Origin: Consotaella salsifontis | GTDB lineage: Bacteria > Pseudomonadota > Alphaproteobacteria > Rhizobiales > Rhizobiaceae | Length of the DNA stretch: 64,000 bases | Reading direction: 5' to 3' | Assembly: GCF_900167365.1 (NCBI RefSeq) | Contig: NZ_FUXL01000008.1 | Coordinates: 124,001-188,000 of the forward strand | Shown: positions 46,552-62,785 of the stretch, piece by piece | How positions within the stretch are numbered: position 1 is the first letter of the stretch | Layout: the number at the start of each line of letters is the position of its first letter | Translations under genes and position numbers: made by a program | The notes under the pieces: model-generated | Database searches by the model: none | What the model saw: only the letters and a program-made list of their open reading frames with translations | Told to the model about the DNA's origin: nothing

Positions 46552-46641
<90 letters not shown>

Positions 46642-46733: not shown

Positions 46734-48440
46734 TTGCATGCTCTGCTCGCACCCTTCGTCACGAGGCGCGGACTCCTCTTCTGGTTCCGCAGGCCGGTTC
46801 CGGTGGACCTGGTCTCCTGCCTCGGCAAGTCGGATATCCGGCGTTCGCTGCGCACCAGCGACGCTCGGGCCGCCAGACGAAGGGCATGGACGCTGTTGCG
46901 CGCGGTCGAGGAAGCATTCGAGACGTTGAGGAGGGCCGGACTCAGTTCCGACGCCCGCTCGGCGTTCGGTGCGATCCTCGATCACGTCATCGACGAGTTC
47001 GATGGCGGCCAATCTCGCTGGGCTGAGAGGGCCAAATACCGATACCTGATCGAGCGACTGGTCGCCGACGAGCCGTTGATGCCCGCCTTCGATAGGGAAG
47101 CAGCGGAAGCGCCTCGGTCGACATATCCGAACATTCGCCCTCACCCGGAAGCGGGGCCGCGCGTCACCGCCGATGTCGCGATGCGAACGGCCGCCTCCCG
47201 CGGCGGCGCCATGGCCACAGTCCCATCTGCCGCGCAGCCCACCGCCGGGGCTTCGATGTCCGCGGCGGACATCGCGGCCATGATCGACAAGGGGATTGGT
47301 GCCGCTATCAAGCGCGCCATGGCCCGTCCGGGCTCGGACGATCTTCTCTCATCGCGTGTGCCCGCCTTCCTCCAAAGGAAGACCGAAGAGTTGGGCCCCA
47401 AGGCGAAGCACCTGGCGGACTATTCGGGCCGCATCGCGGTCTTCATTGCGATCGTTGGCGACAAGCCCATCGGCGCCTACACCATCGAGGACATGCACCG
47501 GTTCCGCGACATCCTCGACCAGATCCCCGTCAAAGGCCGGCAGCGCTTCAAGACGGCTGATCCGTTACTACAGATCAGGATGAATCGGGAACTTGCCATC
47601 CCCTTCCCCCCGATCGACCCGGTCACGGTCGATGCCAAATACCTCAGCCCGATCAAGACACTGTTCAGCCATCTCGAAGGCCTTGGCGTCATCGAGAAGA
47701 GTCCGCTCGACGGCATCACGTCGAAGCGCATGAAAGGCGAGGACGGCATCGCGATCGGCCCCTCCGAGGAACGTCTGCCCTTTGAACCGGACCATCTAGC
47801 GAAGCTTCGGAAGATTGCCGACCAAAAGCCACAGTCCTCACCCGATCGCTGGTGGATACGGGTGTTGCCGCGAACCGGCTTGCGTCTCGACGAGTTCGCG
47901 GTCTTGTCCGTGTTTGACATCCGTCAGATTCATGGACGCTGGTGCGTCGATCTCCTCCATCTCGACAATGGCGACCCCGCTCACCGGGAACGCCGCAAGG
48001 AGCTCGACGTCAAAACCTCCAACTCCCGCCGCGTTGTTCCAATCCACCGCGCACTGATCGAGGACGGGTTCCTCGACCTCGTCGAAGCGCGGAGGAAGCG
48101 GAGCGGCGAAAGGGCACCCCTATTTCCGCAGTGCAAGCCCGACCGATATGGTTGCTACTCCTCCGCGCTGTCGAAGCGCCTGACCCGACAGATCGACGAG
48201 GTGACACCTGACCGCCGACACGTCACCCACTCGACCCGGCATAACTTCGCGGCGGCATGTGACGCCGCCGGGGTGCCGGATTCGGTGAGAGAGCGCTTCC
48301 TGGGCCACGCCGTCGATGAGACTGCCGTCCAGGATGGCCGTGCTCGACCGCGAGGATCGCGCGCCAAGCTGAGACGCCGATACGGCTCGCCAATACCGTC
48401 GCGCGAGGAGATGGACTGGATTGATCGGTTGCAGGTCTAG
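46734..48440 (+). CDS. Tyrosine recombinase / integrase of the island
   Basis: This 568-residue protein probably catalyses island integration at tRNA-Ser. The N-terminus (LLFWFRRPVPVDL ... SDIRRSLRTSDARAARRRA) is the DUF6538-like arm found in many proteobacterial integrases, and a SAM-like domain occupies about 210-320. The catalytic set is Arg in TGLRLDEF, Lys/Arg in KTSNSRRVVP, HSTRH, GH in FLGHAVDE and Tyr in RRRYGSP. The GH-to-Tyr distance (about 26 residues) is longer than usual. The start is a TTG at 46734 without a strong ribosome-binding site. Confidence 0.85.
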   Translation: MHALLAPFVTRRGLLFWFRRPVPVDLVSCLGKSDIRRSLRTSDARAARRRAWTLLRAVEEAFETLRRAGLSSDARSAFGAILDHVIDEFDGGQSRWAERAKYRYLIERLVADEPLMPAFDREAAEAPRSTYPNIRPHPEAGPRVTADVAMRTAASRGGAMATVPSAAQPTAGASMSAADIAAMIDKGIGAAIKRAMARPGSDDLLSSRVPAFLQRKTEELGPKAKHLADYSGRIAVFIAIVGDKPIGAYTIEDMHRFRDILDQIPVKGRQRFKTADPLLQIRMNRELAIPFPPIDPVTVDAKYLSPIKTLFSHLEGLGVIEKSPLDGITSKRMKGEDGIAIGPSEERLPFEPDHLAKLRKIADQKPQSSPDRWWIRVLPRTGLRLDEFAVLSVFDIRQIHGRWCVDLLHLDNGDPAHRERRKELDVKTSNSRRVVPIHRALIEDGFLDLVEARRKRSGERAPLFPQCKPDRYGCYSSALSKRLTRQIDEVTPDRRHVTHSTRHNFAAACDAAGVPDSVRERFLGHAVDETAVQDGRARPRGSRAKLRRRYGSPIPSREEMDWIDRLQV

Positions 48441-48769: not shown

Positions 48770-49090
48770 ATGGCTGACGCCATCTACGCCGCACATCTGT
48801 GCGGGTTCAAGCCCGTTTCCCATTCCACCATTCCGACGCCTCCCGTCACGATGGATGATTCCGTCGATCGCGTTGCCGTCACCCGCGAAGCCGACATCGC
48901 CGCCACCGCGGCCTCGATCCTCGCCGCGCTGCCCGAGGATGGGTCCCGCATGACGCTGGACGAGGTGGCGCAAAGTTTCTCGCTCGACGCGCCGGTGCTG
49001 TCGGCGATGATGTTGCTGGTCGACCGTGGGCTGATCGCAGCCGACTGCACCCTTCCCTTCTCGCGCGACCTTCCGCTTCGCCGACTCTGA
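48770..49090 (+). CDS. Small protein of unknown function (winged-helix-like)
   Basis: The protein has 106 residues from the ATG at 48770, preceded by GGAGAG; an ATG at 48740 is an alternative. The C-terminal half reads ILAALPEDGSRMTLDEVAQSFSLDAPVLSAMMLLVDRGLI. This looks like a helix-turn-helix of the winged type, with a short linker and a hydrophobic last helix. It could regulate the group of genes that follows 104 bp downstream. I do not recognise the family. Confidence 0.45.
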   Translation: MADAIYAAHLCGFKPVSHSTIPTPPVTMDDSVDRVAVTREADIAATAASILAALPEDGSRMTLDEVAQSFSLDAPVLSAMMLLVDRGLIAADCTLPFSRDLPLRRL

Positions 49091-49194
49091 CAGACGGCAG
49101 GCCCTTGAATCCTCGCCCCTGTGCGCTGCAGGGGGACTTTATTCCATCGCGATGAAAAGGCGGTGCGCACGGTTTGCGCGACCGAGGGTGAACT

Positions 49195-50076
49195 ATGTCC
49201 AAATTCAGTGAGAGACTGTTCGACCAGAAACAGCCCGCAGACGAGGCCGACAGTCGGCTCGACGCGGCCTTCACGCAACTCGCAGCTCGCGTGATCCGCG
49301 AAGCGGACGACCTTGCTCGGGGTCAGGACCCGGTGCTTCAGGAGTTTGCCGGGCTGACCAGCCTCGCTCACTCCATCGTGCTGCGACACGGGCAGGCCGC
49401 GGCAACCGCACTCGCCCGGATCATCGAGGTGTCGGGACCGCATTTCCAAGTGTTGACAGAGGAGAAGATCCCGCTGACGGCAGCGGCCGAAGCCGCCGTT
49501 ATCGCTAATGCACCCCACCGACTGCACCAGGTTGATCTCCCACACGACCAGGGTGTCCGTGGTAGCTATCGATGCGATATCGTCCTGCTCTGCGAGAAGG
49601 TCGGCTATGGGGTGCTGATCGAAGTGAAACGCGGCGCCTCGAGCCGGTCGCACAAGGCAATGCTGCGCCGTCTCGAGATCGCCCGTCTCGCCGCCCGTTT
49701 TCATCTGCAGCAGAAGAGCCGGATCTCGCGCGTCGAGGCGGTCATCATCGATCTCCACGGCACGGAATCTGCGCCCGGCGTGATCCTGCGCGACCAGATC
49801 GACGATTTCTTTGGGCTGCCGATCACTCGTCAGCTCGACAGGTTCGACGCGATCTATCGAGCTCGGGCTCGCTCCGCCTTGGTCCGCCGGTACGAAAACC
49901 TCTCCCAGGCGCTCACCCCCGCCAGCGTGAACATCTCTGGGGACGGGCAGAGTCAGGCAGCGGCTTCAGCCGTCGGCGATGAAGACGCTGGCGACAACCC
50001 CATTGGGCCGGCGCGCATCCTCGCCGCCCGGCAAAGGCAATCCGGAGGTCTGCACGTCGTCGGAGGTGCCCAATGA
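49195..50076 (+). CDS. Putative PD-(D/E)XK-type nuclease-like protein
   Basis: This 293-residue protein does not belong to a family I can name. Residues 127-147 read as a restriction-endonuclease-like core. Asp128 (CDIVLL) is followed by a turn (EKVGYG), then Glu143 and Lys145 in LIEVKRG, giving the D-x14-E-x-K pattern. A helical N-terminal half precedes it, and an Arg-rich helix (RSHKAMLRRLEIARLAARFH) follows. Its last four bases overlap the next gene (ATGA). It could be the nuclease or DNA-recognition subunit of a system with the AAA+ protease at 50350. Confidence 0.5.
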   Translation: MSKFSERLFDQKQPADEADSRLDAAFTQLAARVIREADDLARGQDPVLQEFAGLTSLAHSIVLRHGQAAATALARIIEVSGPHFQVLTEEKIPLTAAAEAAVIANAPHRLHQVDLPHDQGVRGSYRCDIVLLCEKVGYGVLIEVKRGASSRSHKAMLRRLEIARLAARFHLQQKSRISRVEAVIIDLHGTESAPGVILRDQIDDFFGLPITRQLDRFDAIYRARARSALVRRYENLSQALTPASVNISGDGQSQAAASAVGDEDAGDNPIGPARILAARQRQSGGLHVVGGAQ

Positions 50077-50363
50077 GCCGGGATAGAACGTGCACGCGAG
50101 CGGATGGCAAGATGGATGACGGGAACCCCGATAACACCAATGCTCCCACGGTCGTCAAACTTCCGTCGTTCATCGCGATCGGCGCGCTGCTGCGGCTTCA
50201 TCGAGCCGGAGCTGCCGCGCCACACGTCGAGGCGGAGGTTCGCCATCGGGCAGTTCAGGGCGATCCGGCGGCCCAACTCGTCGTGAGCTGGCTGGATCGA
50301 CTCGTGGCGAAGCCGGTTGATCGGGCGGGCGTCGACAGGGGAGGCTGCGATGGCGCTCGCTGA
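50073..50363 (+). CDS. Small protein of unknown function
   Basis: This 96-residue frame overlaps the previous gene by four bases (ATGA) and the next by 14, so coupling supports it as real. The middle shows a helical segment (LPSFIAIGALLRLHRAGAAAP) and then VQGDPAAQLVVSWLDRLV; the ends are charged and low complexity. There is no recognised domain. It may be an adaptor or inhibitor for one of its neighbours. Confidence 0.45.
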   Translation: MSRDRTCTRADGKMDDGNPDNTNAPTVVKLPSFIAIGALLRLHRAGAAAPHVEAEVRHRAVQGDPAAQLVVSWLDRLVAKPVDRAGVDRGGCDGAR

Positions 50364-52305
50364 CCTACCGAAGACAGTCGATAGGGACTTCGACCTTGCT
50401 CTCGACGAGTTCGACGCTGCAGTCGGCGACGACGCCCCGCAATCTGCTGACCATCGGCACCGTCGGTTTGCCCGTCTCTTGCCTGCGGAGCGCCTGCTTG
50501 CCGACCGGATACGATGCGAGGTCTTTCCACTGCGCCGCAGGGTTGCGCGCGGCAGCAATCTGCTGATTCTGCTCCGGGTTCCATCCGCCGATTGGCTCCT
50601 ATCGGCGGTCCCGGCCGCAGAAGCGGCAATGGCAGATCTTGCCGCGCGAGCAGGATGCGAGGAGAGACGATGCGGGCGGGTAATCTTCGAGCCCTCTTCT
50701 CGCCGGAAGTCGATCGACGTCGACGAGGTTCGAGGGCACCTTCTATCGGGGCATTGCATTCTCTCGATGCCGCAGGGGTGCAAGATGCCACCGGTGCTCG
50801 CCGCCTTGGCCGATCTCGACATGACGATCTCCCCGTTCGCGGTCGACGAGGTCACCAGGGCACTTCGTCGCAGCTATGCGGGATCTCGCATTCGCCTTGG
50901 GCACGAGGCAGGTCTCTCTGCCTTGACCCCAGTCGATCTCAACCTGGCTTGCAGAAAGTCCGGCAGGCCGCGCGAAGCCATCGGCCTTTTGGCCAAGCTC
51001 GCCGGTTCCTCAGCCACAAGCGGTGACAGTTCGGTTCCGGCGTTCGAGAAGCTGGAAGGCTATGGGGACGCCAAAGCCTGGGGCTTGCAGATGATCGCCG
51101 ACAACGCCGCATACAGACGCGGTGAGATTGCGGGCAGCGACATCGGTCCGGGAGCGCTGCTGGTTGGTCCGCCTGGGACCGGCAAGACGCTGTTCGCAAA
51201 TTCCCTCGCGAAAGCAGCCGGAACGGCCTTCTTTCCGGCCTCGTATTCGGCGTGGCAGGGCCAGCGGGAAGGGCATTTGGGCGATGTAACCAAATCAATC
51301 CAGCGCACGTTTTCTGATGCACGCGCGGCGTCTCCGGCAATTGTCTTCCTCGATGAACTCGATGCGATTCCGGCTCGGAATGCCGGAGCACGGCATGACG
51401 ACTGGTGGGGTGCCATTGTGGCGACCCTGCTCGAAGAATTGGACGGTACGGACCGGCGCCAAGGAGTCGTCGTGGTCGGCGCTTGCAACGACGATCGCGG
51501 ACTGGATCGAGCGCTCGTCCGCGCTGGTCGGCTTGACCGAATCATTCGGATAGACTTGCCGGACGAAGCCGCCCTAACGAAGATCCTGGCACATCATCTT
51601 CCCAACCTGCCACTCGATCAACTCGAGCCAATCGCCATTACCCACGCCGGGACGATGTCCGGCGCCGACGTAGCTCGCCTCGCGCGTGATGCCCGCGCAA
51701 GAGCGAGAAGTCGGGGAAGAGCAATGGAGCCCAGCGACGTGCTCGCCACAGCGTTGCCCGTCGATGAGCGTCCCGAATCCCTCCGCCGGCGGATCGCCAT
51801 TCATGAAGCGGGGCACGCCGTTGTCGGTATGGTTCAAGGCGCCGTGCCTCGGTCAGTATCGATCGTCGGTGACCATAGCAGTGGCGGTCGAGTCATCACG
51901 CCGGCAGTGGGCGGCGAAGGCGTCCTTCCCGACATTGAAAAAACGGTCATCCGGACCTTGGCCGGGCGGGCGGCCGAGGAGATCATCCTCGGCAATGTCT
52001 CTGCCGGCGCCTCCAATGACCTTGAGCGAGCGACGACGCTCGTCGCCCAGGTCGAGGCCTATCTGGGGCTGGGGTCGCATCTCGCTGCCGTGACAGGTGC
52101 CGAGCACGCTCCGACGGAACGGCGTCTGCGACGGCTTTACGGCGAAGCGGCGATCCTCATCCTCACCCACAAGAGCGACGTGGTCGCCTTGGCCGATCGT
52201 CTCATGAAAGAGCGGGTCATGGGCCAGCAAGCACTGAAGGATTTTGCATGTGAAAGGTGTTGGCAGACTCTCACGATTCAGCCGGTCGAGAGACCGCCGG
52301 ACTGA
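50350..52305 (+). CDS. Soluble FtsH-like AAA+ zinc protease
   Basis: The protein has 651 residues from the ATG at 50350 behind GGGGAGG. The AAA+ module has Walker A GPPGTGKT (273-280), Walker B IVFLDELDAI (331-340), and arginine fingers in RAGRLDR. The M41 peptidase module has HEAGH (485-489), and a third zinc ligand Asp557 in GASNDLERAT is as in FtsH. Unlike housekeeping FtsH there are no N-terminal membrane helices; a ~230-residue soluble domain precedes the ATPase. So it is an unanchored AAA+ protease with an unknown substrate-recognition domain, coupled to the two genes upstream. Confidence 0.88.
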   Translation: MALADLPKTVDRDFDLALDEFDAAVGDDAPQSADHRHRRFARLLPAERLLADRIRCEVFPLRRRVARGSNLLILLRVPSADWLLSAVPAAEAAMADLAARAGCEERRCGRVIFEPSSRRKSIDVDEVRGHLLSGHCILSMPQGCKMPPVLAALADLDMTISPFAVDEVTRALRRSYAGSRIRLGHEAGLSALTPVDLNLACRKSGRPREAIGLLAKLAGSSATSGDSSVPAFEKLEGYGDAKAWGLQMIADNAAYRRGEIAGSDIGPGALLVGPPGTGKTLFANSLAKAAGTAFFPASYSAWQGQREGHLGDVTKSIQRTFSDARAASPAIVFLDELDAIPARNAGARHDDWWGAIVATLLEELDGTDRRQGVVVVGACNDDRGLDRALVRAGRLDRIIRIDLPDEAALTKILAHHLPNLPLDQLEPIAITHAGTMSGADVARLARDARARARSRGRAMEPSDVLATALPVDERPESLRRRIAIHEAGHAVVGMVQGAVPRSVSIVGDHSSGGRVITPAVGGEGVLPDIEKTVIRTLAGRAAEEIILGNVSAGASNDLERATTLVAQVEAYLGLGSHLAAVTGAEHAPTERRLRRLYGEAAILILTHKSDVVALADRLMKERVMGQQALKDFACERCWQTLTIQPVERPPD

Positions 52306-52423: not shown

Positions 52424-53419
52424 ATGATCGACTGTACAAGGACCGAGGTGACCAGGACGCCCGAGACACAACACCGCTATCGAAAGCGATGCCTTGATCT
52501 GAAGGACCAGGCATATCGGGAGACCAACCGCCCAATGCCAATCATGGACCTCATCCGGTGGTTCACAGGACAAGATCGGCGGTGGGCGCCATCAACCGTC
52601 AGGCAGTATCGGGCGGCGCTGACGTGCATGATCGAGGCGGCAGCGGCCGCACGTAGGATCTCCGCGGAGGGGCAGGAGACCTTGATCGCACATCTAAAAT
52701 CCGGCCCTGCCCCGCGTGATCGTCATGAGGAGCCGCGACGGACCTCTGCCAAGAAGAGGAAATCCGTTCCCATCAAGGAATGGGGGCGCCTGATCGGAGC
52801 ACTCATCAATGGTGACGAACGCGACAAGCTGGCCGCATCCTTCATTTCATGCAACCTGCCGCTCGGGCTGAGGCCCGTCGAGTATCAGGACGCCTGCTCG
52901 GACGGGCGGACGTTGAAAGTCATCAATGCGAAAGCGACAAACGGCCGAAGCTTCGGTATGACCCGAGACATCGATCTTGCTCCGGTAACAGATCAAAATC
53001 CGTCATTTCCGGCGTTTCTTCTCCGGTTCCTGCAACGCTTGCGAGAAGCTGCTGCGGAAGCCGGCGGTTGGGCGCGCCTCTGGAGCCGAATCGCCGCGCG
53101 AATAGCACGTGCGTGTAAACGATGCGCGATCCGCCGAGTCTCGCTCTACTCGACCCGCCATGCGGCGCTTGCGACTGCGAAACAGCTGCTTTCGATGGAA
53201 GAGGTCGCGGCGCTGGCGGGGCACAAGACGACGCGCACGGCGACGGTGCATTACGCCAAGCGTCGTTCTGGCCTCTCTGCTAGGCTTCGATGCGGGGCGC
53301 CAACGCCAGAAACGACTTCGCAAGTCAAACCATCTCGGAAGGCCGAACGACAGACAAACATCGAATACCATGAGGCTGCCGCAAGAACTCCGTCATCGAT
53401 TAGAGCATTTCCGGCTTAA
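52424..53419 (+). CDS. Second tyrosine recombinase (C-terminus replaced by IS sequence)
   Basis: This 331-residue recombinase-like protein has an N-terminal SAM-like domain (MDLIRWFTGQDRRWAPSTVRQY). The catalytic region has Arg in PLGLRPVEY, an SLYSTRHAALA box, GHKTTRT and Tyr in VHYAKRR. The final residues (about SIRAFPA) are encoded by the end of an IS630 remnant, so the natural C-terminus is probably lost, although the catalytic core is complete. A role in mobility of a sub-element is inferred. Confidence 0.72.
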   Translation: MIDCTRTEVTRTPETQHRYRKRCLDLKDQAYRETNRPMPIMDLIRWFTGQDRRWAPSTVRQYRAALTCMIEAAAAARRISAEGQETLIAHLKSGPAPRDRHEEPRRTSAKKRKSVPIKEWGRLIGALINGDERDKLAASFISCNLPLGLRPVEYQDACSDGRTLKVINAKATNGRSFGMTRDIDLAPVTDQNPSFPAFLLRFLQRLREAAAEAGGWARLWSRIAARIARACKRCAIRRVSLYSTRHAALATAKQLLSMEEVAALAGHKTTRTATVHYAKRRSGLSARLRCGAPTPETTSQVKPSRKAERQTNIEYHEAAARTPSSIRAFPA

Positions 53420-53841
53420 TCCGGCTCATAGCCAGCGGCGGCGAAGTAGTTGGCGCACTCGTCAGGCTTGAAGAGTGGGAGGACCGCGCCGACGGCGTCC
53501 CAGAGGCCATCGACCGATCGCTCGGCTCTCGCCCGCAGCAGCGACTTGAGCTTGGAGAAGGCCATCTCGATCGGGTTGAAATCGGGACTGTAGGGCGGGA
53601 GGTAGTGCAACTCCGCGCCAGCCCCCTCGATCGCCGAGCGAACGCCTTCGGTCTTGTGCGCCGGTAGATTGTCCATGACCACGATGTCGCCTGGCGCGAG
53701 CGTCGGGACGAGCACCTGCTCGACATAGGCTCGGAAGGCGATGGCGTTCATCGCCCCGTCCAGCACCATTGGCGCGGTCATCCCCGTCAGTCGTAACGCG
53801 CCGGTGAAGGTTGTCGTCTTCCAGTGACCGTGAGGGACCCC
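53416..53841 (-). pseudogene. IS630-family transposase, C-terminal remnant
   Basis: The frame is open from the junction at 53841 to the stop at 53416, about 141 residues. It starts in the middle of the protein ([12 protein letters not shown]), has the catalytic DNLPAHK and [11 protein letters not shown] (DDE motif) and ends GYEPD. The N-terminal ~200 residues are missing: the copy is cut by an IS3-family element, and the expected other half is not on its far side. It is inactive on its own. Confidence 0.88.
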
Positions 53842-53868
53842 TGAACCGCACCGGATTTGCCGGAGGCT
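53842..53868. repeat. Left terminal inverted repeat of the IS3-family element
   Basis: These 27 bases start TGAACCGCACCGGATTTGCC. They pair with 55136-55162 except for one base. Confidence 0.9.
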
Positions 53869-53894
53869 CCCACTCCTGAGAGGATGGAGCCACG

Positions 53895-54221
53895 ATGAGC
53901 AAGACGACGAACAAATTCTCGCCGGAAGTGCGCGAGCGAGCGGTGCGGATGGTGCTGGACCATGAAGGCGAGCACGTCTCGCGCTGGGCCGCCATTCTTT
54001 CGATTGCCCCGAAGATCGGCTGCGCGGCGCAGACGCTGAACGAATGGGTCAAGAAGGCCGAGGTCGACAGCGGCAAGCGGGCGGGCATCACCACCGAGAT
54101 GGCCGAGAAGATGAAGGCGCTGGAGCGGGAGAACCGGGAGCTTCGTCAGGCCAATGAGATCCTGCGCAAGGCCTCGGCGTATTTTGCGATGGCGGAGCTC
54201 GACCGCCGGTCGAAGTCATGA
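53895..54221 (+). CDS. IS3-family transposase OrfA
   Basis: This 108-residue DNA-binding subunit has a helix-turn-helix ([19 protein letters not shown] ... [16 protein letters not shown]) and a leucine-zipper-like C-terminal coiled coil ([21 protein letters not shown]). It overlaps orfB by four bases (ATGA). OrfAB fusion could also arise by a -1 frameshift, but no obvious slippery run was seen. Confidence 0.93.
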
Positions 54222-55123
54222 TCGCCTTCATCGACGATCATCGCGGGGAACACGGGGTCGAGCCGATCTGCCAGGTGCTGCCGATCGCCCCGTCGACCTA
54301 TTACGACCATGTGGCCAAGCGCGCCGATCCCTCTCGCCTTCCACCTCGCACCAAACGCGATGCGGAACTGCGGCCCGAGATTGAGCGTGTCTTCGACGAC
54401 AATTTCGGCGTCTATGGCGTGCGCAAGGTCTGGCGGCAGATGCGCCGGGAAGGGTTCGACATCGCCCGATGTACGGTGGCTCGCCTGATGAAGACAATGG
54501 GCATCAAAGGCGCGGTGCGCGGCAAGCGCGTGAAGACGACGATCAGCGACAAGGCAGTGCCGTGCCCGCTGGACCGGGTGAACCGCCAGTTCCAGGCCCC
54601 GGCGCCGAATGTCTTATGGGTGAGCGATTTCACCTATGTTGCGACCTGGCAGGGGTTCGTCTACGTCGCCTTCGTCATCGACGCCTATGCCCGCCGCATC
54701 GTCGGTTGGCGTGTCAGCCGCACGGCCCGTGCCGGGTTTGTTCTCGATGCCTTGGAGCAGGCAGTTCATCAACGCCGCCCCGCCAAAGGCATCGGGCTCG
54801 TGCACCATAGCGATCGAGGATCCCAATATCTGTCGATCAAATATACCGAGCGACTCGCCGAAGCGGGGATCGAGCCGTCCGTCGGCAGTGTCGGTGACAG
54901 CTATGAGAATGCCCTCGCCGAGACGATCAACGGGCTGTTCAAAGCCGAGGTCATTCATCGCCGAGGGCCATGGCGCCACGTCGAAGCCGTCGAATTCGCG
55001 ACACTCGAATGGGTGGATTGGTTCAACAACCGCCGTCTGCTCGAGCCGATCAGCAACATTCCGCCCGCGGAAGCTGAAGCCAACTATTACGCCGCCCTGG
55101 ACCAAACCGACATGGCCGCATAG
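54218..55123 (+). CDS. IS3-family transposase OrfB (integrase core)
   Basis: This 301-residue catalytic subunit has an HTH-21-type region ([20 protein letters not shown]), then the rve core. The DDE triad falls in [10 protein letters not shown] (first Asp), HHSDRGSQY (second Asp) and [14 protein letters not shown] (Glu). The C-terminus has [21 protein letters not shown], usual for IS3. It looks intact, so the element may be active. Confidence 0.95.
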
Positions 55124-55306: not shown

Positions 55307-57457
55307 ATGTCGGATGTTCTTCATGCCGAAGAAGTACTCAGCAAACGTTGGAAGCAGTGGCAAGTTGACATGATCCCGAGGAAATCTGACGCAGATGTTG
55401 CAGCAGCCAGGCTCGACGCATTCCAGCGCCGCTTCGTCGAGGCGGAAGATACGAACGTGCGGCTGTTGGCGCCGGCAGGCAGTGGCAAGACGCACTCGCT
55501 GCTCTGGCGCTGCGCTGAGATCCTTCATCGGAGCGAAGGCCAAGCGCGTTTTCTCATCGTGACCTTCACCCGCGCCGCCCGCGACGAATTGCGGGCACGG
55601 CTGTTCACACCACAGTTCGGATCGCTGTCCACCAACGCTGACGTCGTCACTCTGAACGGCTGGGGACACCGCATCATTCGCGGCAACTTTCTCAATCCCC
55701 GGCTGATGACCAGCGAGAACGACCGGAACCTTCTGATCAGGAACACGCTGCAGGCGTCCTGGGCGGAGGAACCGGCGATTGCGGAAGCAATGAGGGACCA
55801 TCCCTATCAGCTGCCCAAGATCCTCGCGGAGGTCCTCGACATCCTGAAGGCGCTGGGATTCGACCATGAAGACGGCTCCATGCGCCATGCCAACGCCCGG
55901 CTCGATGCGCTGGAGGATCTCGGCCTTTCGCGCCATATCGATCAGCTGATCGAGAAGCTCCAGGAGCACGGCGTGCTGGCCAACCGAAGGCTCGAGACCT
56001 TTGTCGAGACAGTGATGCCGTTCTGGGTCAAAGCGTGCGATCTCCAGGTGGCCCAGTCGACGTTCACGCTGGAAGACCAGAAATATGTCGCCTTTCTCGA
56101 CACGCGCCGACGCGTCAGGGAGGGCAGCCGCCCCACCGCGGATGCTCGGACCACCCACATCCTCGTTGACGAGTTCCAGGACATCAATCCGCTCGATCTT
56201 GCCTTGGTGCGCGAGATCGCGGTGCTGAACGACGCCAAGATCACCATTGTCGGCGACGACGACCAGGCGATCTTCGAGTGGCGGGGCGCGACACCCGACT
56301 ACATTCTGGAACCCCAGGCGCATTTCGGCCAGCCATTCGCCACTCATATCCTGGAACGCAACTACCGTTGTCCGCGAAACCTGGTCGAAAAGTCGGCCCG
56401 ACTCATCGAACACAATCAGCACCGCGAGGCGAAGACGATGTCGCCGGTTCTGGAGCGGGATGCCGAAATCGAGCGGCTGGAGCATGCGAGCTTCGTCGCC
56501 GCGACCGACGCGGTGATGAAAGAGGTTCGCGCCTTCCTCGCCCGGGATGTTCCCGGCGAAAAGCTCGCGGTGCTGTCGCGGAAGCGGGCACAGTTGATCC
56601 CCTATCAGATCATCATGGCACGCGAGGGCCTCTCTTTTTGCGCGGCCGAGGATCTGCACGTCTTCCTATCGGAGACGTTCGACCGTCTGCTGCATGCGAT
56701 TCGCACACGGGCAATGGCGACGCTCGGCGTGCGCCTGCCGACCATGGTCGAGGATGTCGTGACCCTCTGCAACTCGGTGCGACGTTTCCCGCTGAAACGG
56801 GCCGAGGCCGACGCGCTTGCCAGGCATCTGCGCAACGGCCGGCCCAAAAGCTACGATGAGGTGATCGATGCCCTTGAGGCCTATCGTGGACCGCTGAAGG
56901 GCAAGAACGAGGACGGCAAGATCAGCGCCGCCTTCGCCCAGGCGCTCCGCAAGCTCGTTCATGCGCCGACCGTGCGAGCGGCGATTGAGGCGATGCAGGA
57001 CCTCTTCGGCGGCTTCCAGCAGGACTATGGCCGCGCTCAGGAAGACATCTTCCTGGTCGATCCTCCCTTCCTCTACCTGACCGAATTCGCCGAAGCCTAC
57101 GGCGACGACTTTCAGCGCTTCCTCGACGATCTCGAGACGGCCAAGGACACGCTGGTGCGGCTGCCAGGAGAGGACAAGGAGGACGATGCCAACAGCCTTT
57201 GGCGCCGGCCGGTCCACTTGATGACCGCACTGCGGGCGAAGGGCAAGGAGTTCGACACCGTGGTCATGCTCGACGTCGTCGACGGAATCTGGCCGTTGCG
57301 CCGTGCCAAAAGCGAACGTGAGATCGAGGCTGAACGACGGTTGTTCTACGTGGCGATGACCCGAGCCAAGCGCCGCCTGATCCTGACGCTGTCTGGCCGG
57401 ATCGGCGACCAAGTGGCGAGTGCATCGCCGTTCCTGGAGGAGGCCAAGCTGACATAG
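55307..57457 (+). CDS. UvrD/Rep-like superfamily 1 DNA helicase
   Basis: The protein has about 716 residues from the ATG at 55307; starts at 55286 (GTG) and 55370 (ATG) are possible. It has SF1A helicase motifs: Walker A APAGSGKT (residues ~55-62), FTRAARDELRARL, Walker B VDEFQDINPLDL (~284), GDDDQAIFEWRGA, YRCPRNLV, TALRAKGKEFDTVVMLDVVDG and RRLFYVAMTRAKRRL. No nuclease domain is seen at either end. It converges on zorD with a 7-bp gap. It could be an independent defence gene or an accessory to Zorya; no Gabija partner (GajA) is nearby. Confidence 0.88.
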   Translation: MSDVLHAEEVLSKRWKQWQVDMIPRKSDADVAAARLDAFQRRFVEAEDTNVRLLAPAGSGKTHSLLWRCAEILHRSEGQARFLIVTFTRAARDELRARLFTPQFGSLSTNADVVTLNGWGHRIIRGNFLNPRLMTSENDRNLLIRNTLQASWAEEPAIAEAMRDHPYQLPKILAEVLDILKALGFDHEDGSMRHANARLDALEDLGLSRHIDQLIEKLQEHGVLANRRLETFVETVMPFWVKACDLQVAQSTFTLEDQKYVAFLDTRRRVREGSRPTADARTTHILVDEFQDINPLDLALVREIAVLNDAKITIVGDDDQAIFEWRGATPDYILEPQAHFGQPFATHILERNYRCPRNLVEKSARLIEHNQHREAKTMSPVLERDAEIERLEHASFVAATDAVMKEVRAFLARDVPGEKLAVLSRKRAQLIPYQIIMAREGLSFCAAEDLHVFLSETFDRLLHAIRTRAMATLGVRLPTMVEDVVTLCNSVRRFPLKRAEADALARHLRNGRPKSYDEVIDALEAYRGPLKGKNEDGKISAAFAQALRKLVHAPTVRAAIEAMQDLFGGFQQDYGRAQEDIFLVDPPFLYLTEFAEAYGDDFQRFLDDLETAKDTLVRLPGEDKEDDANSLWRRPVHLMTALRAKGKEFDTVVMLDVVDGIWPLRRAKSEREIEAERRLFYVAMTRAKRRLILTLSGRIGDQVASASPFLEEAKLT

Positions 57458-57464
57458 GCGCCAT

Positions 57465-60400
57465 TCACGCGGCCAGCGGCTGCCCATCCACTGCGCTGCC
57501 GAACAGCGCGTCGATATCGCCATCCTCGACCGGCGGCATCAGCATGTGTTGCGAGAGGCGACGCTTCTTCTCCAGAAGCTTGTCGAGCGTGACATCGAAC
57601 GTTGCCTCACGGAACGTGGGGTGCACCGCGATCGGCACGTGGATCGTCACCGGCTTGTCCTGCCCGATGCGATAGACGCGGTCGTTGCATTGATCCTCGA
57701 CGGCAGGGTTCCACCAGCGCGACAGGTGGATGACGTGGTTGGCCGCGGTGATGGTCAGTCCGACGCCTGCCGCCTTGGGTGACAGGACGAGGATATCGAA
57801 GCCCGGTCCTCTCGCTTGAAAGCGGTCGACGATCTCCAGCCGCCTGTCGCCGGGGACAGAGCCATTGATGATCTCCGGCTCCGACGAAAGCCCAAGATGC
57901 GTTGCAATCGCGCTGGCGAAGGCCGATTGGACGGATCGATCCTCAAGGAAGACAAGGGCCTTTTCCTTGGCTGCGGCAATCGCCTCGAGGCAGCCGACGG
58001 CGTGCGTCATCCGTGCGGAGCGGGCGATCCAGGCAGCGACCGAACGCGGATTCAACGGGTCGAGCCCCTCCGATCCGTCAGGATGCAACGAAATGCCCCG
58101 AAAGGCATGGATCGCCCGCAGCATGTCGCTCTGTCGCCGCTGGCCGAGACGCGCGGCGGCCACGGCCTTGTCATAGGCCTCGGCCTGGGCCGGTGGCATC
58201 ACGATGCGTTCGGTTTTGACCTCCTTCTTTGGCAGGCCCGTCAAGATATCCGCCTTCATCCGTCGCAGAAGAACGGCAGGAGTTTGCAGATCGGGTCGAT
58301 CGAGACGTGCCTTGAGTTCCTCGAGTTCGGCCGGCCCGCCTTCCTCGTACATCTTGGCGAAAACCTTGAGCTCGCCGAGATAGCCCGGAACCACGCGATC
58401 CATGATGCACCAGAGATCGGTCAGTCGGTTCTCGATCGGCGTGCCCGTGAGCGCCAACACGAAGTCGGCGTTCATCGCCTTGGCCGACTGGGTGTTGATC
58501 GCACCGGGCGCCTTGATCTTCTGCGCCTCGTCGAAGACTGCGACCGAAAAGGCCACGCGGGCGAAGACGCGGTGATAGTTCGCCAGCGTTTCATAGGTGG
58601 TCAGCACCCAATCAGCCTCATGGATGCGCCTGATATCGAGGGCATCCTCGGGTGTGACGTCCACTCCCTTTTCGGCCTTCAAGCTGCGCAAACCGGAGCC
58701 GAAAGCATCGACGCGCGTTCCGAGCGCGCCCGGCAGGAGATGCCGCTCGCTCTCCTCCACCCAGTTGCGCAGCAGCGCGGTCGGCGCGACGATCAGGATC
58801 GGCTCTCGCGCAGCCCCCTGGTTTCGCCCGAGCCGCGCCCGGTTCTTGCGCACCCAGGTGAGGAAGGCGAGTGCCTGGAACGTCTTGCCGAGACCCATGT
58901 CGTCGGCAAGAAGAACGCCCGGCCAGCCAGCCTTCCATGCGTCGACCAGCCAGCCGAAGCCCTCTTCCTGATGCGGCTTCGGCTCCGTTCGCGCCAGTTC
59001 GCCGCGCGGAAACGTCTCGGCGATCGTTGCCGTGCGCTTCGGCCATGCGACCTCGTAGTCGACGCCTTCGAAGTTCTGCGCGATCAGCAGGACCTCGCGG
59101 TCGCTCGGTCGATCTGGCGCGGCTGGCTCGGCGGCGCCGTCGTCAGGGCCCGATTGCTCAACTGGGCCGTTTTCTGACGCCGCTTCGGGCTGGACAGGCT
59201 CGCCGCCCGGCAGCTGAAATTCGGCGAACGCTTCTTCGACGTGCAAGACTGGCGTCGGGACATTCTCGATCAGGATCTCGTCGCGATCCGCTGCCTTCGC
59301 CTCTGCAAGTTTCCTCGTAATCTCGTCGTAGCGGTCGCTGTTCATCTCGACGAGACGATCGCCGATCTTCAAGGGGAAGCTCTCCGGCAGCCACTGCCCG
59401 GCCTTGTTCTTCAGCCAAGGAAGCACGGGCGGCCGCCAGATTCCGAGGCCGAGGACCCGTTCGGAATACTGCGCCGTTTCGACGAACAGGACGGCCGCGG
59501 CAGCATCGCGCCCCTCGCCCAGAGCCTCGGCGATCGCCGGCCGCGGATTGCGGATGAAGGCGCGCCGCTCGGCCGTCGGCGCGCGGCGTTTCTCGCGCAC
59601 CACATCCAGTGCCGTCTTCAGATCCTTGTCGACGACAAGAAAAGTGTTGCGAGCCAGAACATAGCCGTCGCGCGTCTGCGCTTCCCGCGAGAAGACGTCG
59701 GCGACGAAATGCGTCTGCAGGTCCGGCGGCAACAGCGCGTCCTCGACCTGATCCCGATGAACGCCGGGCACGGCATCATCGTCGCCCTCGCCGATCGGAG
59801 CATCGTCCGCCTCGAGAACCGCCTTTTCACGCCCCATGACGATCGGCACGAAATCCGGGCCGTCTGCGGTTTCGCGAATGTCCAAGGCGAACGATCCCGC
59901 CTGGTAGACCGTGAGGCTCTTCAAGTAGCCGTCGTCGGAACTGATCGTCTGGCCGGTGGTGCGCTTGAGCGCGTCCTGCACCGGTCCCCAGGCCGCAATC
60001 CGTGCCTCCGATGAGCTCCCGGCAGAGGCGTTATAGGCGTCGATCGCCTCCAGCAGTTCAAAGACGCTAGCGACGAGCCGAGCGCTGTTCTCACCCCAGG
60101 TCACGAAGCACCCGTGCCGCGCGACCCTGATCGTGGAGAAATTGTCGTCGTACCAGCGCACCCGGATGCGAGCATCACTATCCGTCATCTTGCCTTCGAA
60201 GGAGAGCGTCGCCGACAGGTTCGTCAGCGCAGGCAGTCCCAGCGCGTCGGCCACTGACGCCGCGAGCTGTGAAGCGACCGGAAAGGGCAACAGGATGCCA
60301 TCGCCCTCAATCGCCGCCTCTCCCTCCGCGATCAGCCGGTGAAGCGTCTTGGCCGCATTGCCAAGCGGTGCGGGCAGAGCCATCCACTGGCCTGGCGGAA

Positions 60401-60482
60401 CGAACCTACGGCTGAGCAAGCGCCGCTCTTTGGCCTGGAGATAGGCGCCGTCTGGTCGGAGGTCGTGGGAAAACTTGACCAT
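57465..60482 (-). CDS. zorD: Zorya type I effector helicase ZorD
   Basis: This 1005-residue SNF2/SWI2-type ATPase has Walker A ADDMGLGKTFQA (about residue 527), DEAQ box DEAQKIK (~650), LTGTPIENRLTDLW, and the C-terminal helicase lobe with HLSRWWNPAVEDQCNDRVYR and IGQDKPV. The ~500-residue N-terminal part is family-specific. It follows zorC after three bases and is the last gene of the operon. In studied Zorya systems ZorD is a DNA translocase or nuclease-associated effector recruited after phage DNA injection. Type I is assigned because zorC and zorD are present rather than the HNH gene zorE of type II. Confidence 0.92.
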   Translation of the reverse strand: MVKFSHDLRPDGAYLQAKERRLLSRRFVPPGQWMALPAPLGNAAKTLHRLIAEGEAAIEGDGILLPFPVASQLAASVADALGLPALTNLSATLSFEGKMTDSDARIRVRWYDDNFSTIRVARHGCFVTWGENSARLVASVFELLEAIDAYNASAGSSSEARIAAWGPVQDALKRTTGQTISSDDGYLKSLTVYQAGSFALDIRETADGPDFVPIVMGREKAVLEADDAPIGEGDDDAVPGVHRDQVEDALLPPDLQTHFVADVFSREAQTRDGYVLARNTFLVVDKDLKTALDVVREKRRAPTAERRAFIRNPRPAIAEALGEGRDAAAAVLFVETAQYSERVLGLGIWRPPVLPWLKNKAGQWLPESFPLKIGDRLVEMNSDRYDEITRKLAEAKAADRDEILIENVPTPVLHVEEAFAEFQLPGGEPVQPEAASENGPVEQSGPDDGAAEPAAPDRPSDREVLLIAQNFEGVDYEVAWPKRTATIAETFPRGELARTEPKPHQEEGFGWLVDAWKAGWPGVLLADDMGLGKTFQALAFLTWVRKNRARLGRNQGAAREPILIVAPTALLRNWVEESERHLLPGALGTRVDAFGSGLRSLKAEKGVDVTPEDALDIRRIHEADWVLTTYETLANYHRVFARVAFSVAVFDEAQKIKAPGAINTQSAKAMNADFVLALTGTPIENRLTDLWCIMDRVVPGYLGELKVFAKMYEEGGPAELEELKARLDRPDLQTPAVLLRRMKADILTGLPKKEVKTERIVMPPAQAEAYDKAVAAARLGQRRQSDMLRAIHAFRGISLHPDGSEGLDPLNPRSVAAWIARSARMTHAVGCLEAIAAAKEKALVFLEDRSVQSAFASAIATHLGLSSEPEIINGSVPGDRRLEIVDRFQARGPGFDILVLSPKAAGVGLTITAANHVIHLSRWWNPAVEDQCNDRVYRIGQDKPVTIHVPIAVHPTFREATFDVTLDKLLEKKRRLSQHMLMPPVEDGDIDALFGSAVDGQPLAA

Positions 60483-60485
60483 CGG

Positions 60486-61862
60486 TCAGCGCGCACTGAG
60501 ATGATATTCGGGCGGCTGAATACGCGCCCCCGTCATCCGATAGATCTTCTCGGCAACCACTCCTTGCCAAGAATAAGTCTCAGCGTGGTTGTGCGACTTC
60601 GTCAATTCGGGAGCATAGCCTTTGCCATCTTTCAGTTCGTAAGCATCATAGAATTGCTTGTACAGAGCTGGCGCTCCCGTTCGATCCCATTCGTTCCAGA
60701 TACGGCAAGAACCGTTGTGGCTCCATTCTGCGACCACGCCCCTACCAACTCGCAGGAGCAAAACGGACTGTCCCGACTGGACGCCGCCGCCCTTGTGGAA
60801 GCGGCCGAACGAGACCTTGCTTCCAAAGCGCCGCTGAGCGGCTCTGACCCCGGCAGGATCGAAGACCACCCATGCCGTCTGAATGAGCTTTCGTTTGTAG
60901 ACAGCCTCCCAGAATGCGCGTCGGTATCGCCACATGTGGGCGTCGGCCACTTCGCCGACCACGTCCAGGAACTGCCGCAACGCCTGCCGCGTGAGCCAGC
61001 GGCGGGCGATCTCGGCGGCCTCCGGCATGTTGACCCAGCGCCCCTCCTGCGTCCGGGGATCGCCGAAGAGACCGATCAGGACGTCGAGATATCGGTCGCA
61101 GATATCTTCCGGAGGCTGCATCTGTTCGAAGGGGAGCAGCAGGGCGTTGGCGACGTCTGGACCTTGTGCCGGGAAATAGAGTTGGCCCACTTCATCGACC
61201 GCGATTTCCTTAACGAAGGCGAGCCGATCCAGCGCATCTAGGCGCCGATCGCCGGCCAGAAGCCGCAGCGCCTCACGGGCACAGATCTCCGCAAAGCCGG
61301 CCCGGATCACCGATGCCGTTAGCCCCGCCTGCTGCAGGAGAGCGCTGGGGGCGATCCGGCGGTCATGCGCCCGCCTCGCCACCTTCTGGGGACCAATGGA
61401 CGGATCGAAGATTGCGAACTCGCGATGCAGCGCGTCGAACGGCTTGCCGGCCGTCTCGGCCAGAGCCGAGAGCACGCGGGCGACGGCGGCAAGGCCCGGA
61501 CGATCCGGTCTGAAGCTGAACAGGAAGGACAGCGCCAACGTGCGGGACGGCGACTTCCGGTCCGCCCGCCGGATCTGGTCGAGAAACGATGCAAGCGTCT
61601 CGTCGGCAGCGGCGAGGCGCGTCGTCGTTTCCCAAAGGCACCAGGCCGCATCGCGCAGCTCGTTGAGCGTGAGTTTCTGGCGGGCTGCCAGGCGCGGGCC
61701 GAGCCGTTCGGCAATGGCGTCGTAGTCCTTTTTCTTGGTCAACCCCCCGTCCACACCCTGAATCTGAGCCGCCGCAACCGCGATGGCCGCATCGCGCGGC
61801 GGCGGAGCTCGGCCGGAATGCCGAAGCGACATCTCCCGAATGGCTTCGCGAAACGTCGTCAC
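60486..61862 (-). CDS. zorC: Zorya type I protein ZorC (EH-signature domain)
   Basis: This 458-residue protein corresponds to ZorC. The C-terminal part shows the EH-signature element, with Glu and His in VAEWSHNGSCRIWNEWDR, preceded by a helical region (MWRYRRAFWEAVYKRKLIQ). The N-terminal half is mostly helical with a KFDALHREFAIFDPS-like stretch. It starts four bases inside the zorB end (ATGA) and is three bases from zorD. ZorC is a DNA-binding partner of the motor in studied systems; that is family knowledge. It is somewhat shorter than the better known E. coli protein. Confidence 0.85.
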   Translation of the reverse strand: MTTFREAIREMSLRHSGRAPPPRDAAIAVAAAQIQGVDGGLTKKKDYDAIAERLGPRLAARQKLTLNELRDAAWCLWETTTRLAAADETLASFLDQIRRADRKSPSRTLALSFLFSFRPDRPGLAAVARVLSALAETAGKPFDALHREFAIFDPSIGPQKVARRAHDRRIAPSALLQQAGLTASVIRAGFAEICAREALRLLAGDRRLDALDRLAFVKEIAVDEVGQLYFPAQGPDVANALLLPFEQMQPPEDICDRYLDVLIGLFGDPRTQEGRWVNMPEAAEIARRWLTRQALRQFLDVVGEVADAHMWRYRRAFWEAVYKRKLIQTAWVVFDPAGVRAAQRRFGSKVSFGRFHKGGGVQSGQSVLLLRVGRGVVAEWSHNGSCRIWNEWDRTGAPALYKQFYDAYELKDGKGYAPELTKSHNHAETYSWQGVVAEKIYRMTGARIQPPEYHLSAR

Positions 61863-62770
61863 AGGCGCGGCCCTCGTCCGGTGCTCGCTTCTGGTGGCGC
61901 AGACTGGAGAAGCTGATCGATCTGCGTCCGCATCTGGCCGAGCAGGTTCGTCACCGCTTCAAGCCGCTTGCGGCGTTCCGTTTCCATGACGAAGCGCAGA
62001 TCGATGCGGCGATTGCGCTCGTAGCCCGCCGAATCCTGCTCGTCCGCGATGGGCCGGGTCGAGGAATAGCCGGACACGGAGAGAACCGCCCGCCCTTCGC
62101 TGTTCTTCATATCCTTGAGCGTCGGGGCCGTCTCGACCAGGCGGCGATAGGTGTTGACGGCGCGTTCGGTCGAGAGCTGCCAATTCCGATCGTCCGAACC
62201 GGTGACGTCGGTGTGGCCTTCGATGAACACCGTCTCAATGCTGAGCCCCAGCGCATTCGAACACGCGGCCACCAGCGGCGCCGAGCAGTCGCTGTAGGCC
62301 GGCAGCGTCGCGGACAGCGCCCGAGCGATCGCGTCGACATTGCTCGCTGCCTGGCTCGTCAGATCGGAGTGGTCGGACGCAAATCGAACGGCGTTTTCGT
62401 CGAGGCGCAGCACCCCGTTGCGCTGATCGATGGTCACCCGGATGTTCTCTTTTTCCAGCCGCTCACGGATGTCGGTCAGGAGCTGTGCCCGAACGCGTTC
62501 CGACTCGCTCAGCGCCTCGATGTCTTCATGGACCTCGGCCTGGAGATGGTCGATCTGCCGGGCGACCTGTTCGACGATCTCGATACGGCGCTTCTGGTCT
62601 TCGGTGATTTCGATCTGCTGGTCGGTCGTCTGCCGGTAGTTCAGGGCGAAGATCATCAGCATGATGATAAAAATGAACAGGATGCCGACCATCATGTCGG
62701 TCATCGAGATGAAGTAGTTCTCCTCGGCTTCCTCGGTGGCCGTGTGGGGAATGTCGGCGTCAACGATCAT
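61859..62770 (-). CDS. zorB: Zorya motor stator-plug protein ZorB (OmpA domain)
   Basis: This 303-residue MotB-like protein has a single N-terminal helix (ISMTDMMVGILFIFIIMLMIFAL) with Asp25 as the presumed ion-carrying residue. A long coiled-coil linker (about 50-110) is followed by an OmpA-type peptidoglycan-binding domain with FIEGHTDVTGSDD and YERNRRIDLRF. The helix residue and domain order match ZorB and distinguish it from TolR or ExbD. With ZorA it forms an inner-membrane ion-driven motor anchored to the cell wall. The gap to zorA is 15 bp. Confidence 0.93.
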   Translation of the reverse strand: MIVDADIPHTATEEAEENYFISMTDMMVGILFIFIIMLMIFALNYRQTTDQQIEITEDQKRRIEIVEQVARQIDHLQAEVHEDIEALSESERVRAQLLTDIRERLEKENIRVTIDQRNGVLRLDENAVRFASDHSDLTSQAASNVDAIARALSATLPAYSDCSAPLVAACSNALGLSIETVFIEGHTDVTGSDDRNWQLSTERAVNTYRRLVETAPTLKDMKNSEGRAVLSVSGYSSTRPIADEQDSAGYERNRRIDLRFVMETERRKRLEAVTNLLGQMRTQIDQLLQSAPPEASTGRGPRL

Positions 62771-62785
62771 TGCGGCGAGCCCGGG

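Follow-up and report, generated by a model that had tools for sequence, protein, structure and literature searches.

A cytosolic FtsH-like AAA+ protease paired with a restriction-fold protein on mobile elements: a possible ClpX-like module

Four consecutive genes on an island of Consotaella salsifontis (Rhizobiales, Rhizobiaceae), here called P1 to P4, bring together a soluble AAA+ zinc protease, a restriction-fold protein and two small proteins. They lie in a stretch of 64,000 nucleotides (positions 124,001 to 188,000 of contig NZ_FUXL01000008.1, assembly GCF_900167365.1), referred to below as the window; L, G and C numbers are our handles for loci, genomes and contigs. By analogy, and with a confidence somewhat short of even, we propose that P1-P4 might be a module of mobile elements which unfolds or degrades DNA-bound protein complexes, in a role similar to that of ClpX. 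The domain content of the proteins, the intact motifs of P4, the conservation of the P2-P4 pair and the linkage of P4 to Tn7-like operons and to integrases are direct observations. The genes are arranged as follows:

48770-49090, plus strand: P1, 106 aa
49195-50076, plus strand: P2, 293 aa, PD-(D/E)xK-fold protein
50073-50363, plus strand: P3, 96 aa, small protein with P2 on one side and P4 on the other
50350-52305, plus strand: P4, 651 aa, cytosolic FtsH-like AAA+ zinc protease

P2 and P3 overlap by 4 bp, P3 and P4 by 14 bp; an alternative TTG start of P4 at 50317 would yield 662 aa. These coordinates confirm the initial annotation, made from the sequence alone, in its description of four plus-strand genes directly after the island integrase. 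What it had observed is confirmed; its interpretation, a defence or toxin-control system of four genes, is partly supported.

P4 matches the Pfam families AAA (E 7e-29) and Peptidase_M41 (PF01434, 1.2e-16; 61.6 bits against a cut-off of 29.9). In the window its motifs are intact: Walker A (GPPGTGKT), a Walker B-like IVFLDE, the zinc motif HEAGH, and NDL, which we take to be the site of the third zinc ligand of FtsH. It has no transmembrane helix, the top 19-residue hydropathy being 1.44 as against 2.46 and 2.12 (first 150 residues) for two FtsH-type proteins of the same genome. A housekeeping FtsH could be ruled out: besides lacking the helix, P4 scores 178.5 bits against the NCBIfam FtsH model TIGR01241, not reaching the cut-off of 600, and a tree of the AAA region (leaving out L065, L078, L087, L141 and L148) splits the P4 family from the two FtsH-type proteins with 100/100 support. 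Two parts of P4 are located as follows:

50491-51024, plus strand: AAA-like N-terminal module of P4, apparently degenerate (residues 48-225; from model and structural matches)
51802-51816, plus strand: HEAGH zinc site of P4 (from sequence)

The structural model of P4 (predicted local distance difference test, pLDDT, 77.5; predicted template modelling score, pTM, 0.57) matches FtsH 3kds over 391 residues with Z 21.0 and p97 with Z up to 23.0. Of the 50 structural matches listed, two (p97 7lmz and Rix7 7t0v) align with residues 48-470 and 44-471 of the model, with a large overall root-mean-square deviation (15.1 and 14.2) and lower pLDDT in the N-terminal region. We take the stretch aligned to be two successive AAA domains. 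Because these alignments span both, the N-terminus of P4 looks like a degenerate second AAA module, one that gives no AAA match in Pfam. Pfam, hydropathy and model thus agree with the initial annotation, which had seen in P4 a soluble FtsH-like AAA+ zinc protease with a new N-terminal region.

The relative of P4 is encoded by two genes in eight loci (L026, L064, L072-L076 and L092). The first stops after the large AAA subdomain and the second comprises the small (lid) subdomain and M41, with the subdomain limits drawn from alignment and from the FtsH structure. The eight split loci form one clade with 100/100 support; in L074 the first part was called as two open reading frames (ORFs). In L076 (11140-14305) a DUF6634 gene separates the AAA half from the lid and M41 half, so that here the split is no sequencing frameshift. 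The P4 relative of L089 has its protease end out of frame, and the corresponding reading at L018 5238-7332, which is the same place, is decay or assembly error. On plasmids, 68 records match residues 1-307 of P4; a scan of viral contigs, sensitive to close relatives only, gave no match.

P2 has no family match in Pfam, PADLOC or NCBIfam, and a Pfam search with the 32 members of its family returned four families, one member each, at E 0.014 (AHJR-like restriction endonuclease) to 0.09. Its AlphaFold2 model, computed from the alignment of 32 rows, has pLDDT 84.4 and pTM 0.77. The model shows a helix at 49-80, strands at 84-95, 121-133 (carrying D128) and 138-145 (carrying E143 and K145), a helix at 150-172 and a strand at 179-186, that is, an alpha-beta-beta-beta-alpha-beta core, with residues 84-186 modelled as restriction-like. 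Nearly all of the 50 PDB matches listed are, judging by titles, presumably PD-(D/E)xK nucleases. The R2 retrotransposon endonuclease leads (Z 7.8), followed by EcoO109I (7.4), PspGI (7.0), Bax1 (6.8), Card1 and Can2 (6.6) and McrBC (6.5); every Z is below 8, the level at which the tool itself advises caution. Foldseek alone found nothing for the model at E <= 0.001, and the P2 profile retrieved only ribosomal-protein matches among PDB sequences, at E >= 0.037. The initial annotation had named the signature D128, E143, K145, and had set a restriction-like fold in residues 100-180 beforehand as a test; the residues are there and the modelled core encloses that range. We regard the PD-(D/E)xK fold of P2 as well supported by the model.

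Catalysis in every member of the family appears less supported than the fold. In the alignment D128 is present in 32 of 32 rows, K145 in 31 of 32, and R146 is invariant. Position 143 holds D in 14 rows, E in 8, S in 6 and N in 4, which makes D or E in 22 of 32. K145 is lost in L077, which among the loci with both P2 and P4 has the P4 nearest to that of the window.

The P2 profile found relatives in 23 of 397 genomes of the order and in 8 of 387 genomes of the class sample, the window's genome included in both. Of 36 places found, 32 were analysed: G158 was left out as spurious (E 1.7e-4, an oxidoreductase by eye), G667 for its 3.3-kb contig, and G066 and G683 because the gene finder missed the P2 ORF. 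The weak match in G264 (E 9.4e-4) did not recur in the order-wide profile search. A P4 relative lies just downstream on the same strand in 19 of the 32 loci (15 genomes), including L065, where a P4 fragment at the contig start is all that is present (E 3.9e-4); L082 and L091 touch the P4 profile but carry another AAA+ gene and stand outside the 19. Close relatives among the 19 (L065/L066, L072/L073, L085/L087) mean that they are not independent. The pairing exceeds chance: the two genes adjoin each other in 18 loci besides that of the window, and P3 comes out on top for a P3 profile from which the window was excluded. That the genes recur together was the check named by the initial annotation, and co-occurrence in 19 loci disfavours the idea of no single system. 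The window's genome itself carries a second, diverged copy of the module on contig C11. No P2 relative was found on plasmids at 1e-3; a contig scan with P2 likewise gave no match, and the whole-genome search was positive.

P3 is a real conserved protein. Its frame ranks first among the 855 ORFs of the window for a profile built from nine other loci, the window excluded (E 1.6e-4, next 0.57; profile pieces selected by eye). A P3-type protein intervenes between P2 and P4 in ten loci (window, L026, L064, L072-L076, L078 and L092, assigned by eye) and a DUF6634 protein in four (L063, L077, L089 and L090); in 5 of the 19 loci neither was seen from P2 to P4. The conserved unit of the supposed four-gene system, judged from these comparisons, is P2-P3-P4: this part of the initial idea holds, while P1 drops out, no P1 relative having been found adjoining P2 in the other P2 loci.

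Some P2 relatives pair with a different AAA+ ATPase (cluster c85, five P2 loci), often together with a calcineurin-like phosphoesterase or DUF2130. Given both the P2-P4 and the P2-c85 loci, an AAA+ ATPase is therefore one recurring partner of P2. A second type of module is seen in L067, L068, L069, L071 and L091, where the P2 relative precedes another AAA+ ATPase, a small protein or both; genes for a calcineurin-like phosphoesterase, DUF6634 and DUF2130 also accompany this type. In L079, L080, L083 and L084 short P2 relatives, with N at the acidic position in all four, are divergent from an operon of a GHKL ATPase and an Mrr-helicase; a cytosine methyltransferase occurs in L079 and L083, and Vsr was scanned in L079.

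Relatives of P4 are commoner than those of P2, with 81 places in 57 of the 397 genomes; we set the line for a P4-like protein at 282.9 bits or more, above a narrow gap (next score 279.8). The TniA of L144, used as query, found 48 places in 41 of 397 genomes. The two figures are minimum counts, because no more than three P4-like and two TniA candidates were scored per genome. A P4 relative lies within 15 kb of 25 of the 48 TniA places, 20 times upstream on the same strand with 1.2-4.1 kb from match to match and five times on the opposite strand; for a single place, such proximity would arise by chance with a probability of about 0.006 per P4 copy. We fetched 20 of the 21 highest-scoring P4 places without P2 (G320 left out; P4 of L141 mostly uncalled), and 11 of these 20 contain a TniA-cluster gene, with TnsA-, TniB- and TniQ-type genes where the stretch extends. 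One representative of each type was compared with Pfam. TniB and TniQ reach the cut-off, TniA (Mu-transpos_C) and TnsA (TnsA_N) stay below it, so the Tn7-type naming rests also on gene order; the TnsA-type genes are backed by a profile as well.

The P4 of L144, located upstream of TnsA-TniA-TniB-TniQ, is the sister of the window's P4 (support 99/97). On the tree P2-linked and Tn7-linked P4s are interleaved, the P2 label changing 5 times compared with 9.4 times when shuffled (2 of 500 shuffles as low). The protease has therefore moved from one type of element to another. Tyrosine integrases of two clusters accompany 6 of the 19 P2-P4 loci. Upstream of P4 in L144 and L148, beside the Tn7-like element, stands a divergent three-gene operon (642/754, 439 and 751 aa) that looks defence-like by eye.

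P1, which the initial annotation had labelled a small regulator, rather resembles the C-terminal domain of TnsA, a subunit of the Tn7 transposase. For a TnsA profile built without the window, the P1 frame ranks first among 855 window ORFs (E 3.7e-4, next 0.49), scoring 17.7 bits where the best of 500 shuffles reaches at most 4.4 bits, and it is ranked first by all seven leave-one-out profiles (E 5e-5 to 0.077). The alignment covers profile positions 163-215 only, which correspond to the C-terminal domain; no window ORF matches the N-terminal nuclease part of the profile better than E 0.49. A plain helix-turn-helix regulator was rejected, as the helix-turn-helix matches are weak (0.09-0.16) beside the TnsA match.

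In seven loci without P2 (six on the gene map, L141 by match position) the gene directly upstream of P4 belongs to family c426, a full-length relative of TnsA: five of the seven members match the NCBIfam TnsA-like model (best 6.4e-9), and profile comparison gives 97.7%. The lysine usual after the PD motif is missing from its usual place in all seven, as read by eye. Since either c426 or P2 precedes P4, two PD-(D/E)xK-related families, unrelated versions, fill one slot upstream of the protease. P1 and P2 jointly represent both parts of TnsA, the nuclease fold and the C-terminal domain. Comparison of P2 with the TnsA profile showed no significant likeness (probability 4%), though the aligned piece includes the motif, and P2 and c426 were not alike when compared.

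The recurring neighbours of P4 are thus DNA-facing proteins (TnsA types and P2) and recombination operons. In the proposed model, P4 would be a cytosolic unfoldase-protease, presumably assembled into a ring, in which a degenerate AAA module is followed by an active AAA module and the M41 zinc protease. Because its motifs for unfolding and cutting are present and a membrane anchor is absent, its substrates should be cytosolic. P1, P2 and probably P3 might bind P4 physically and serve as its DNA-facing adaptor or client-recognition part; c426 would have the same role in its loci. Such adaptors would most likely hand over DNA-bound protein complexes, which may be those that the element's own recombinase forms with DNA, once recombination is over, or those of competing elements; action on competitors would amount to defence. 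P4 would then unfold and degrade what is delivered, as is proposed for ClpX with complexes of Mu and of Tn7-like CRISPR-associated transposition (PMC12326709 for the latter).

In Mu and in Tn7-like elements the finished protein-DNA complex has to be dismantled, a task ascribed to ClpX in the case of Mu. There is a precedent in a type I-F CRISPR-associated transposase: ClpX raises its insertion, deletion of clpX in E. coli lowered activity in the assay, and ClpX is hypothesised to take apart the post-transposition complex (PMC12326709). An extended version of our model would hold that both Tn7-like and tyrosine-integrase elements carry a dedicated cytosolic tandem-AAA M41 protease with a TnsA-derived or other restriction-fold adaptor, which dismantles recombinase-DNA complexes as an element-encoded counterpart of ClpX, and that in one clade the AAA+ motor is built from two separately encoded halves. 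Taken as a whole, this extension is doubtful.

Several observations weigh against the ClpX-like proposal. TniA has no match at 1e-15 in the genome of the window, and a TniA-cluster gene occurs in none of the 32 analysed P2 loci over the stretches fetched; the window copy is therefore tied to Tn7 through P1 and the P4 tree. The TnsA match of P1 is weak in absolute terms, falling to E 0.077 when the L129 row is removed, and the c426 profile ranks P1 only third among window ORFs, at E 2.8, under the best of 500 shuffles. No TniA lies within 15 kb of 56 of the 81 P4-like places, and 23 of the 48 TniA places are without a P4 relative, five of these 23 having no more than 2.5 kb of contig on their upstream side. 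ClpX was not among the VchCAST factors identified by a genome-wide screen in E. coli, and the authors of the screen propose redundancy (PMC12757027). Finally, P2 relatives also adjoin restriction-like operons, and strong PADLOC matches were found near 8 of 17 P2-P4 loci (16 and the window).

This last point leads to the most serious rival explanation, anti-phage or anti-plasmid defence, with P2 as a nuclease or DNA sensor, P4 removing an inhibitor or remodelling P2 on foreign DNA, and the elements acting as carriers. Because defence genes lie nearby, such a role is possible, and we grant it about a third of our belief. The eight loci are L026, L064, L075, L089, L090, L092, L093 and the window. 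The matches comprise HmaA (L026), a type IIG restriction-modification system, a C5 methyltransferase, ZorA, DrmD, a type III restriction-modification system, and an LmuA-like protein with AbiD; those of the window are Zorya I, type I restriction-modification and PDC-S11. In L066, L072 and L077 one gene each was scanned singly with PADLOC and gave no strong match, and L063, L073, L074, L076, L078 and L085 were scanned in bulk only. The four short P2 relatives beside a divergent operon of a GHKL ATPase and an Mrr-helicase favour defence too (two of these loci also hold a cytosine methyltransferase, and Vsr was scanned in one), as does the patchy spread over 23 of 397 genomes. Tn7-like elements are typical carriers of defence cargo (PMC8649781). 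The enrichment of neighbours is, however, not clean and at most suggestive: 118 neighbours matched 150 PADLOC models and 128 control genes of the same genomes 67 (models, not genes, are counted), the control set itself has strong matches (LmuB, RmrA, GajB and DpdJ), and one of the control stretches is 14 kb away from that in which the module's second copy is found. No family of PADLOC-DB 2.0.0 was found for P1, P2 or P3 at E <= 1, and the fixed place of P4 before TnsA-TniA operons is, in our judgement, unlike that of variable cargo. The defence or toxin-control module of the initial annotation is therefore left as possible, in view of the defence genes near 8 of 17 loci; the link to recombination machinery, seen at 25 of 48 TniA places, is at least as clear.

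Alternatively, P2 might be a self-harming nuclease that P4 keeps low by degradation, the pair forming an addiction module which stabilises the island. The tight overlapping operon, the adjoining integrase and the D-E-K residues kept in P2 would suit this. The family does not keep the catalytic set, though, with S at position 143 in 6 of 32 rows, N in 4 of 32, and K lost in L077, and the c426 proteins have no lysine at the usual place after the PD motif in 7 of 7 (by eye); we consider toxin control improbable. The four genes could also be loose neighbours, decayed or unrelated and left by successive insertions, with no joint function. A P1 relative adjoining P2 was found nowhere else, and insertion sequences and an integrase remnant indicate turnover on the island; such an explanation is very improbable, however, when P2 and P4 relatives stand together in 19 loci of 15 genomes, P3 is conserved in the interval between them and the motifs of the window's P4 are intact.

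The surroundings of the module in the window include the following features:

46552-46641, plus strand: tRNA-Ser (GGA), found by ARAGORN
46734-48440, plus strand: tyrosine integrase of the island, DUF6538 type (Pfam DUF6538 3.3e-17, Phage_integrase 4.5e-10)
52424-53419, plus strand: P5, tyrosine-recombinase-like protein, 331 aa, starting 118 bp after P4

P5 has a relative beyond P4 in L077 (43% identity, E 6e-65, opposite strand) and another in L068 (E 2e-9), where P2 occurs but P4 does not. Four of its eight plasmid matches listed are annotated as site-specific integrase; P5 has no integrase match in Pfam, and a sequence search of PDB gave no result.

The island was probably inserted at the tRNA-Ser (GGA). 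The 3' end of this tRNA recurs at G000:C30:1304-1325, exact over 22 bp (67 bp identical with extensions), followed by an integrase remnant of 280 bp that is 91.8% identical; copy and remnant together make up L155 (G000:C30, 1301-1570). From this copy and remnant, the island seems to extend from the window through the rest of contig C10 and into C30, the assembly consisting of 33 contigs; they also suggest that the same tRNA had received an older island or one in tandem. The cargo comprises a UvrD-like helicase, Zorya type I (ZorA-D), PDC-S11 and a type I restriction system. Insertion-sequence-like ORFs occupy both strands at 53416-55123, with the P2-P4 module on one side and the helicase on the other. 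The helicase (55307-57457), which matches GajB models (1.2e-47), adjoins the Zorya operon, whose four genes ZorA-D span 57465-64000, the last ending at 64912 past the window (PADLOC ZorD 1113 bits). PDC-S11 and the type I restriction system come after the Zorya operon, outside the window.

Each part by itself is of a known kind; we know of no earlier description of the soluble tandem-AAA M41 family, of its Tn7-like linkage, of its pairing with either of the two nuclease-fold families or of the split form. Among the matches listed in open-literature searches (title and start of abstract, subscription papers being mostly outside their scope) no description of the P1-P4 combination appeared; no paper came up there for TniQ combined with FtsH or for DUF6634, and the main text of PMC8649781 nowhere mentions FtsH or a protease. 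If the unfoldase role is true, some transposons and islands finish recombination independently of host unfoldases of the ClpX type. This would bear on host range and on Tn7-like tools for gene insertion, for which dependence on ClpX is an issue (PMC12326709). If the defence reading is true, P1-P4 would be a new protease-nuclease immune module. Either way, an AAA+ protease split at the boundary of the large and small AAA subdomains is, as far as we know, an unusual architecture.

Compared with known systems, P4 shares with FtsH the order of an AAA ATPase and an M41 zinc protease (391 residues matched in 3kds, Z 21.0), but FtsH has transmembrane helices, whereas P4 adds the AAA-like N-terminal module, forms a separate clade (100/100) and scores 178.5 against the cut-off of 600. 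Like tandem AAA unfoldases of the Cdc48/p97 type, P4 probably has two AAA modules, of which the active one matches p97 (Z up to 23.0); it differs in that its first module is without an AAA match in Pfam and a protease is fused. PADLOC models of IetA, from the IetAS defence system, match the AAA domain of P4 (best 1.7e-18) and that domain only; the protease of that system, IetS, is an S8 protease, whereas that of P4 is a fused M41. To Tn7-like transposons (TnsA, TniA/TnsB, TniB/TnsC and TniQ) the module is tied by the linkage of P4 relatives and by the resemblance of P1 to the C-terminal domain of TnsA, but the element of the window has a tyrosine integrase and its genome no TniA match. ClpX is a host protein of an AAA family other than that of P4, whereas the unfoldase P4 sits on mobile elements. 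P4 would nevertheless act in the way proposed for ClpX on Mu and on CRISPR-associated complexes (PMC12326709 for the latter), with an AAA+ unfoldase taking apart a complex of recombinase and DNA.

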